A DNA stretch of 64,000 bases from Centroberyx gerrardi (Eukaryota > Chordata > Actinopteri > Beryciformes > Berycidae), in NCBI RefSeq assembly GCF_048128805.1, contig NC_136016.1:20901676-20965675 (forward strand). Reading direction: 5' to 3'. Below the pieces are notes generated by a model. It was not told where the DNA came from, did no database searches, and worked only from the letters and a program-made list of their open reading frames with translations. The position numbers were made by a program, and so were the translations under genes. This document shows, one piece after another, positions 59,201 through 62,200 of the stretch. The first letter of the stretch is position 1. Every line of letters starts with the position of its first letter.

Positions 59201-62200
59201 TCGAGCGTAACTGTTTTGTTTACACGGGAGCAGAGAAGTTAACTTAGCGAGACTACTCAAGTTTTTTGCGCTGTTGATTTTGTTAACAGACGTGGAGACA
59301 ACTTTCTGACACCGAGCCTGAATACACAGATGAGGGCTTGTCCAAACGGAAAGAAGAGAGGAGTAAGTATAAAGTTAAAGCTAGCTCACTACCTGTTGAT
59401 CCACATGAATGACACTTGCGGCGGCATCACCTGTCTCCTCCTCGGTGTTTCTGCTCCGGGACGGGACGGCGCCGTGCCTCAACAGACGGCGCACGCGGCG
59501 GGTTGGGAAATCTAACCTGTCATAGTAATCATCCAGCTGAAAATGCTCCTGGCAGATATACCTGTTGGTGAGCTTCTCGACTGGAGTGTTTACATCTATG
59601 TCCAAAGCAACGAGCCATAGCCTCAGTCTCTCTGGATCACCGACTGGGAATCGGTGAAAGACGAGATCCGGCCGTTTTTTGTTCCAACATGAGAAAATAT
59701 AACACCTGTGAACCATTGAAGTGCCTTATATGTGAACGCACACGTCTTGGTTAAAAATAAAACCGTAAAGATGCACTGCGCCTGGAAGTTACAACTCAGG
59801 TTGGAAACTCGTGCAATTTAAAGTGCAGCGCGGGCTTCTTCTTCTTCGCCTGCTTCTCCTCATGCATCTTCTTCGCTATCAACGGCGGTTGGCAAACTGA
59901 TTTTTTAGTGCATTACCGCCGCCAACTGTGCAGGAGTATGAAATCAGGGAAACATTCAGTATATAACGCAACTACGAAAATGAAGGAGAAAAAAATAAAC
60001 TGCACTACTCTTAAATTCCATGTATGAATCCTGTTGCCCTTAAGTATTTAAACAAGAAGTTATTCAAATATTTCTTTAAAATTCATTTGCATACCTCTAT
60101 CACTCATCTCTATAATTTGGACTTTCTACCAAGACATGCTCTGTTGTTTCTGACTGCTGGAAAATAATCACACCTTCCATTTAGCTGAGTGTGGTGTTGA
60201 GACTGCACACGGCTAAAAATATGTATATATGTACAGCAGGTGAAAAAGTGGTTGTTTACCTGAAATAGTCCCAAAATAAACCATTGCTACATCAGTTATA
60301 CTGAGTTTATGAGATTTTGATTTCAGAAGTTATGAATCTACAGGCCACAGAATAAAAAACAGAACCAACTTTGGATTACTTAAAGGTTTATCTTCATACT
60401 TAGGATAATGCTAGTTGCCAATGATTACTTAACATACTGTATGCTAAAGAGCTATCTACCGGAGACATAGAGATGATTGTGGTACCAATCCTCTCACTAG
60501 ATATTGGGTAAAGTGACTAATGGGCCAAACTCCCAAAAAGGCAGTGTAGTCCTTGAAAACCAACTGCTGCAGTGGCCAACAGTATAAGACTGTGCTTGCA
60601 CTGGCCAGCAGATCTTCCCTGGGTAAAAATAAAATAAAGGTTTGTATTGTGATCTGCAATATATTAAATATAAAAGTTGCTTTTGAGTTAAAAATGAAGT
60701 TCTGTTTGAGGGCAACTTCAGCAATTAACCTCATTACGCATGCACTCATACATGCATCCATCCATCCATTCATTCATTCCTTCGTTGTCAGCTTTGGATT
60801 AATGACGTCTGAAGTCCAAGCACCTTGAGTTTAAGCTTTAAGGATGATAATATGTGATACAGATTACATTTATCTATGGAAGCAGGGGGAGGCAAGTAGC
60901 TAGCAGCTGACATTCAATAGCCACTGGCAGGCAGGTTTGAGCCTCTGTGGTTGACATTGAACTGGAAGACTGTGTAAACACATGAGCATATAACAAACAC
61001 AGTGTTCAGAAACCGTAACTACCAATACAACCATGCATACTGTACGAGAGAGTTTCACTCCAAAATGTGATATCTACCACTTGATGCCGCAAAAATGCTG
61101 CTGGCATCAAAATAAAGCACATTGTGGGTTATTATGAAAGTTATGAGTCATCATTTGGTCTTTGGTTACAAAATAGTTAGATTTGTGAGGATAAAATCAT
61201 CTGTGTTTTTAAAATACTGACAAAAATACTGTCAAATTTCAGGTCACAAAATTTTTCAAAAATGTTATGTATCCATCTATCCACCTCCAAAAAACGGTCA
61301 ACTGAAATTCGTCATTCAGTATTTCACAGGCAGAGATTCAAACCTGTTTTAACTAGACCTTGTCTCAAACTTCGCTAAAACCTTTTATTTATTGCACAAA
61401 ATGGGCATTTATTTAAAAAAGTACAGACAGCTTATCCCTATCTTCTCCATCCTCTGTACTAAGTTAGGATACAAGATGGTACAGTAAGATTGGAATGTAA
61501 TCACATATTTAGTTGATGGTACTAATTAAATGCTAGGGCAGTGTGTCTTAGCCTTAAAAGCCATGTCATGTTTTCCATGTGATTGATAATTTCATCCATC
61601 CCTCTCTCCCAGCGGGCCACATCACATCTTTCTCTCACCTGCAGTCGAGCCAGTATGGAGGACTTCTTGGAGTTGGATGAATAGGAGCGGGAGCAGGACA
61701 TGCTGCAGAAACGCTTGGTCCTGGAGTAGAAGGTGCCGCTGGTGCCGGTGGTGCCGCACAGCTCACACACCACTGGAGGAAAACATAATCATGCATTTTG
61801 TCATACACCTGCTATAAAATGGGTGTTTTTTTCATCACATTTTAGTTTGCTGATTCAGTCTCATCTGACTTTGTCAACAATCCTGACAGCTTATACAAAT
61901 GGAATGATGGTTCAAGTGTTTTATGGAAATGTCCCGTCATTCCTTTTGATTCATTACATAATGTTGAAAAGGCATTTAACCAAATCTAAATGTTTATTTT
62001 GTACTTAGTCTGTCCTGTTACAACACGATCATACTTTATCCATAATGCATTTATGTTGTACACTGTAAAATATGATCTTATGATCTTAGCATAAGATGCA
62101 AAGATTATGTGGTTCAAATGTATTGAGATGAAACAGATCTTTGATTACTGATTACAGAAATTTTGATTTTAACATTGATCCAGCAACAAAATAATTTTAT

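Follow-up and report, generated by a model that had tools for sequence, protein, structure and literature searches.

A THAP exon within an l3mbtl2 intron of Centroberyx gerrardi is probably the first exon of a Kolobok-type transposase gene carried by an intronic transposon

A stretch of 64,000 nucleotides from the genome of Centroberyx gerrardi (C20:20,901,676-20,965,675, hereafter the window) carries an exon for a THAP zinc finger inside l3mbtl2. Judging from the sequence, this is most likely exon 1 of a transposase gene of the Kolobok type, preserved together with its promoter in an internally deleted transposon copy of ~1.67 kb. We favor this reading because the exon is enclosed by the arms of a transposon with TTAA target sites and 5′-AG ends, and because its best-scoring THAP matches are exons of transposase-type genes. 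That the exon has a transposon-borne origin is, taken by itself, a slightly safer conclusion. The initial annotation had instead proposed that the exon serves l3mbtl2 as an alternative DNA-binding head, and it missed that the open reading frame (ORF) sits within a repetitive inverted-repeat element. As stated, that proposal is not supported; the evidence points to a transposase exon 1 in an intronic transposon. The features of the locus are listed in Table 1.

Table 1. Features of the THAP exon, the surrounding transposon, and the neighboring l3mbtl2 exons (window coordinates unless a genome location is given)
Feature	Position	Strand	Remarks
First THAP exon of the locus	63123..63500	-	Single-copy; phase-0 donor CCT/GTAAGT, read from sequence
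l3mbtl2 FCS zinc-finger exon	61639..61772	-	Upstream of the insertion; profile and exon chains
Left arm of inverted-repeat transposon	60229..60553	-	Begins AGGACTACAC, preceded by TTCA (family: TTAA)
Interior of transposon	59281..60228	-	Promoter-like element and THAP exon; absent from other scored copies
Promoter-like dispersed element	59835..59953	-	GGCGGTAATGC...TTTGCCAACCGCC...GAAGAAG; ~120-240 nt upstream of the ATG; putative promoter
CpG-rich block	59019..59953	.	Observed/expected (o/e) 0.67-1.14 across sub-segments; CpG-poor (0-0.41) on both sides
THAP ORF	59381..59716	-	111 amino acids plus stop; ORF list and Pfam profile
Proposed THAP exon	59,716-59,393	-	108 codons; donor-like CAG/GTAGTG, GT at 59,392-59,391
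Right arm of the same transposon	58885..59280	-	Very end and right target site not recognizable
l3mbtl2 exon GKPPSKK...	58640..58712	-	Phase-0 acceptor; possible partner of the THAP exon
Bipartite element, other places	C2:22810937, C2:32608671, C7:30100693, C14:10421368, C15:587356, C18:1263885, C18:1281211, C20:2998255, C21:18228939, C23:1355527		

The 108-codon THAP exon on the minus strand, as first described, is real. The ORF at 59,716-59,381 matches the Pfam THAP profile (PF05485) at 49.7 bits, where the curated cut-off is 23.9 (E 6.4e-13), and phmmer aligns it with the solved THAP1 chain 2ko0 (E 8.4e-4). The C2CH ligands C5, C10, C55, and H58 and the tryptophan W34, which had been named as its key residues, are all present in the ORF, as is the AVPS box. 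With the curated cut-off exceeded and the ligands in place, the ORF belongs to the THAP domain family. The two THAP exons of the locus were likewise described correctly as dissimilar, with 25% identity over 91 columns. A protein search of the 779-Mb genome, in which 45 of 45 candidates were scored, returned a single identical place, and the next by score shares 45% identity. This excludes a recent or multicopy gene copy, and the ORF is single-copy. Folded alone, the exon gives a poor model with a mean pLDDT of 41.5.

The ORF is surrounded by an inverted repeat that spans 133 columns at 78% identity after refinement. A genome search with positions 58,880-60,550 yielded at least 137 matches among the 40 of 1,527 candidates that were scored, and in these matches, the window itself excepted, the arms are covered and the middle is not. 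The arms adjoin each other in other copies, with 8-bp spacers in two of the loci (L021 and L024). When one such copy was used as the query, contiguous copies of ~670 nt were found, for example at C19:3730673 (40 of 1,867 candidates scored). Relative to the family majority, the arms of the window copy have diverged by 8.5% and 15.4%, with 1 gap opening in the left arm and 15 in the right arm, where the alignment is noisy. The right-arm majority was derived from 8 copies, and two of these (L016 and L018) are misaligned, with 44-46% mismatch.

Kolobok elements are marked by TTAA target sites and by 5′-RR ends, which are unlike those of piggyBac, and some full-length Xenopus Koloboks are described as starting with AGGAC (PMC6004289; PMC9587614). 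The element family in the window has a TTAA target-site duplication: the left ends read TTAA and then AGGACTACAC in 7 of 11 aligned copies, and TTAA is visible at the right ends in L023 and L025. The start AGGACTACAC, found in the family majority and in the window copy, also provides 5′-RR termini. The window copy itself is flanked by TTCA at the left, and its right end is eroded. A P element was rejected because the family is flanked by TTAA and not by the 8-bp target duplication described for P elements (PMC7776569).

Transposases of the Kolobok group usually combine THAP and DDE domains with a zinc motif (PMC6004289; PMC9587614), and C/DxxH is given as the signature of their DDE domain (PMC9587614). 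No remnant of a DDE transposase with such a signature was found in this element. Zinc or DDE exon remnants were sought in the insertion and none was convincing (best E 0.12). The absence of a DDE remnant therefore makes the window copy at most a non-autonomous derivative. Kolobok elements and T2-type MITEs are described with the same TTAA sites, 5′-AG ends, and inverted repeats, and with a THAP-bearing transposase (PMC6004289; PMC9587614). The T2 motif is AGGRR and the start here is AGGAC, so that four of five bases fit. The element differs from Kolobok and T2-type MITEs in that only a promoter and a THAP exon are present, in a 1.67-kb copy within a host intron.

The best-scoring relative of the THAP exon in the genome is at C1:20691100 (45% identity); a few matches reach 46-54% identity and are shorter and weaker than this one. 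C1:20691100 groups with the window exon at 89/85, which is below the strong mark of the tool, in a tree of 13 rows in which no branch is strongly supported. A zinc-motif exon is located downstream in each of the three best-scoring relatives (C1, C7:3698527, and C8:30162137). Genome-wide, 8 of 13 zinc-motif exons follow a same-strand THAP exon at a distance of at most 10 kb, with a chance of ~0.0006 each; five of these eight are at loci already chosen for THAP and three are new (C23, C2:30950713, and C10). None of the 13 zinc exons belongs to the fourth-best relative (C7:30206283). TTDR followed by DxWH occurs in the C7 and C18 genes, which fits the C/DxxH signature, and TTDR alone occurs in C1. 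The name Kolobok for these THAP relatives is a putative assignment, made from motifs rather than by alignment to a reference transposase. Arms of the family were sought around relatives L005-L008, L026-L033, L042, and L043 (L009-L013 were outside this test), and nothing was found beyond a 19-nt match in L007. A search for flanking terminal repeats of their own in four relatives gave no clear result, with none recognized.

Several of these loci have features of their own. Other transposons are nested in or near the THAP transposase-type genes at C7 and C8, producing mixed neighborhoods. A Harbinger-type DDE_Tnp_4 frame (117.7 bits) lies near the C7 THAP gene in L027 (C7:3690100-3700000), and in L028 (C8:30153600-30163500) a 598-amino-acid frame between the THAP and zinc exons is presumably piggyBac-like. 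Three different THAP exons occur within ~2 kb in L030 (C3:4637000-4646900), with phase-0 donors in both of the scorable ones. Two uninterrupted 931-amino-acid THAP frames are found ~51 kb apart at C23:1063051 (in L055) and C23:1011764, and the one that was read has features that we take to be P-element-like.

CpG-rich, promoter-like sequence is present upstream of the THAP exon. A strict bipartite form of the promoter-like element, GCGGTAATGC-N-TTGCCAACCGCC, occurs exactly 11 times in the genome including the window, and 0 times in the reversed control. The core GCGGTAATGC is upstream of THAP in 2 of 9 relatives examined (L005 and L008), and the relative C1:20691100 has the promoter core upstream of its THAP exon. 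At L041, a promoter-like match is positioned just upstream of an open frame that we take to resemble the first exon of a fish zinc-finger gene. The element may therefore be a core-promoter motif that is shared with other genes.

Across 59,953-59,019, the CpG o/e values are 1.02, 0.88, 0.67, and 1.14, versus 0.11, 0, and 0.41 in the outer left parts of the insertion and 0.36 at its right end. Of 5 alignable family CpG sites, the left arm retains 0. The right arm contains 13 CpG in 397 nt, compared with 2-6 in 251-406 nt in seven other copies; 3 of its alignable family CpG sites are kept and 1 is lost, numbers too few for a conclusion. CpG-rich windows also occur at many other places in a 93-kb stretch and are not rare there. 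This pattern suggests an unmethylated block that could be a live promoter.

The THAP frame has stayed open despite the divergence of the arms, which is suggestive of use and nothing stronger. In a neutral simulation, the chance of acquiring no stop and no frameshift was 0.0001-0.03 at 8.5-12% divergence, 0.014-0.084 at 6%, and 0-0.002 at 15.4%, ranges that depend strongly on the indel rate, the higher rate being taken from the noisy arm alignment. The simulation starts from the present sequence and assumes an indel-length mix. If only the left-arm indel rate applied, we estimate, without simulation, that the frame would stay open with a probability on the order of 0.1. Stops are found in 2 of 31 THAP matches in the protein search and in 17 of 150 in another search. 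Because open THAP frames are common among the matches, the openness of this ORF is weak evidence.

The proposal of an alternative head depended on a splice between a phase-0 exon end at 59,393 and the phase-0 acceptor at 58,712. The phases are indeed right: the donor-like CAG/GTAGTG is in phase 0, and no stop interrupts the THAP frame when it is joined to 58,712 and read through that exon. The sense orientation and the phase-compatible donor are what a fusion gene would have, though the donor is weak and a phase-1 site scores better. By our own crude matrices, the phase-0 donor scores 5.2, versus 6.7-11.4 for the best donors of seven relatives. Those best donors are in phase 0 in 7 of 7 relatives scored (L010-L012 gave no scorable frame). 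The highest-scoring donor of the exon (7.2) is CAG/GTGATG, ~38 nt upstream of the 59,393 site, and this phase-1 site would break the MBT frame. Acceptor-like sites at 59,317, 59,011, 58,993, and 58,928 are nearer than 58,712, and all four outscore it, again by a crude measure of our own. In addition, one AATAAA at 58,772 precedes the 58,712 acceptor. In exon chains built on a human L3MBTL2 sequence, the junction from the FCS exon to the 58,712 exon reads ...ARLQ/GKPP... and is in phase 0. Regular splicing of the THAP exon to l3mbtl2 appears unlikely.

Whether the interior of the transposon is native or cargo can be judged from the other copies. Common copies are without the stretch between 60,289 and 59,280, and the 948-bp interior (59,281-60,228) is in no other scored copy. 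A search with 60,280-59,290 alone (22 candidates scored) matched its first ~50 nt at six other places, and in five of these six loci the left arm runs on in one alignment past the 60,289 break to ~60,230. Since 60,289-60,229 continues the arm in these five loci, this margin of the interior is part of the transposon. Other interior matches fall within ~60,141-59,835, which covers the promoter-like element and its upstream side, and 59,834-59,290, which holds the THAP exon, has no nucleotide match elsewhere among the 22 candidates scored. The simplest reading is that the THAP exon and its promoter are native to the transposon. Three observations speak against it: the interior is missing from the other scored copies, no arms of this family beyond the 19-nt match were found around the relatives tested, and the C7 and C8 neighborhoods are mixed. 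Alternatively, promoter and exon may come from the beginning of a THAP gene that was not part of a transposon, having been either acquired by a MITE copy or inserted into it. Capture of this kind would agree with the absence of the interior from other scored copies and with the presence of the promoter-like element near other genes. However, the inner left edge continues the arm elsewhere, there is no close source (the best-scoring relative is at 45%, and the 46-54% matches are shorter and weaker), and the best-scoring relatives are transposase-type genes. We regard a captured host fragment as quite unlikely.

For a native transposase exon, the following history can be proposed. A TTAA/5′-AG inverted-repeat transposon would have inserted in sense orientation into the l3mbtl2 intron between the FCS and GKPP exons, and the rest of the transposase would have been lost, leaving only the promoter and THAP exon in the insertion. 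Transcription would begin near 59,950-59,720, at the transposon promoter, which presumably functions in the germ line. Such transcripts might end alone (stop at 59,381, AATAAA at 58,772) and encode only a short THAP protein that could act as a KP-like repressor. If spliced from 59,393 to 58,712, they would instead encode a THAP-MBT protein that lacks the acidic and FCS exons as well as the first THAP exon. The chance that the THAP exon is transcribed from its own promoter at all appears to be about even.

What the exon does at present could be explained in several ways. It may be a dead fossil, an open but unused remnant that is neither expressed nor selected, which we place somewhat below an even chance. 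The arms have drifted 8.5% and 15.4% from the family majority, the target sites are eroded, open THAP frames are common among the matches, and CpG-rich windows occur at many other places; yet the CpG contrast between 59,019-59,953 and the outer parts of the insertion, together with an open frame and intact key residues, argues against a fossil. The same CpG-rich block and promoter-like element, and the single AATAAA at 58,772, would suit an independent short gene with its own promoter and its own end, encoding a ~111-amino-acid THAP-only protein that perhaps competes for transposon ends as a KP-like repressor. Short P-element proteins are reported to act as repressors (PMC7776569), and domesticated Xenopus Kolobok genes are described as mostly keeping DNA-binding motifs and losing DDE (PMC6004289). 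The donor-like site just before the stop, as seen in the relatives, weighs against a gene that ends there, and we consider an independent gene possible but doubtful.

Less likely again is that l3mbtl2 captured the promoter and THAP exon as an alternative first exon, whose THAP-MBT isoform would carry L3MBTL2 to new DNA sites. The sense orientation, the phase-0 donor-like end and acceptor, the open fused frame, the restriction of high CpG within the insertion to the surroundings of the exon, and the low neutral chance of an open frame (0.0001-0.03 at 8.5-12% divergence) would all be consistent with such a role. The splice signals point the other way, with a phase-0 donor (5.2) below the phase-1 site (7.2), four nearer acceptor-like sites that outscore 58,712, and AATAAA before 58,712. 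Moreover, open THAP frames are common, and the agreement in phase has a one-in-three chance. A further elaboration, in which an isoform joining this THAP to the MBT region without the FCS finger carries the PRC1.6 reader to Kolobok ends genome-wide and thereby silences its own family, would be very unlikely.

Host-transposase fusions are reportedly generated by transposase capture, which Cosby and colleagues are said to have described in 2021, with a transposon DNA-binding domain joined to a host protein. The same route is proposed here; the difference is that the host part would be an MBT Polycomb protein. It is well established that host genes can acquire the DNA-binding domains of transposons (PMC8700633). 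CSB-PGBD3 demonstrates that a transposon in a host intron can supply an exon and yield two proteins per locus (PMC3902484). The exon described there is an alternative 3′ terminal exon with a transposase, whereas the candidate here is an alternative 5′ exon with a DNA-binding domain. P2X7-KolX likewise joins a Kolobok-encoded domain to a host gene, and the account of KolX in that source presents it as the C-terminal domain of P2X7, not as a THAP part (PMC9587614). With these two close precedents, a THAP-MBT protein at l3mbtl2 would be a candidate case of the known capture route. Domesticated Kolobok copies are also similar in that THAP is kept and the catalytic part is often lost (PMC6004289; PMC9587614). 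The P-element KP repressor and THAP9 offer a further likeness, as a truncated THAP-bearing transposon product and as an example of vertebrate THAP transposases, respectively (PMC7776569). The initial annotation had held the arrangement of exchangeable DNA-binding heads to be undescribed. The general idea of transposon-captured heads is already in print, but no report of THAP on L3MBTL2 or of a THAP-L3MBTL2 fusion is apparent among the open-licence papers listed, and no paper on a THAP domain of zebrafish E2F6 came up either.

Were the exon in use, it would form a 5′-end counterpart of CSB-PGBD3, in which one chromatin reader has both a native and a transposon-supplied head. L3MBTL2 is described as a PRC1.6 subunit with a part in choosing the binding sites of the complex, so that a new head would show whether one insertion can rewire target choice. 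If the exon goes unused, the locus illustrates clearly how the raw sequence of a transposon's first exon can pass for a host isoform.

The first THAP exon of the locus is also unique in the genome, with the next match by score at 41%. From its phase-0 donor, it reads in frame into an acidic exon (62532-62658) and then into the FCS exon, and the acidic exon is without a start codon of its own at its head. Upstream of the first THAP exon, a minus-strand frame (L001 1638-2997) presumably represents a reverse-transcriptase remnant. A CpG-rich stretch at ~70,400-71,150 in window coordinates might be the main l3mbtl2 promoter.
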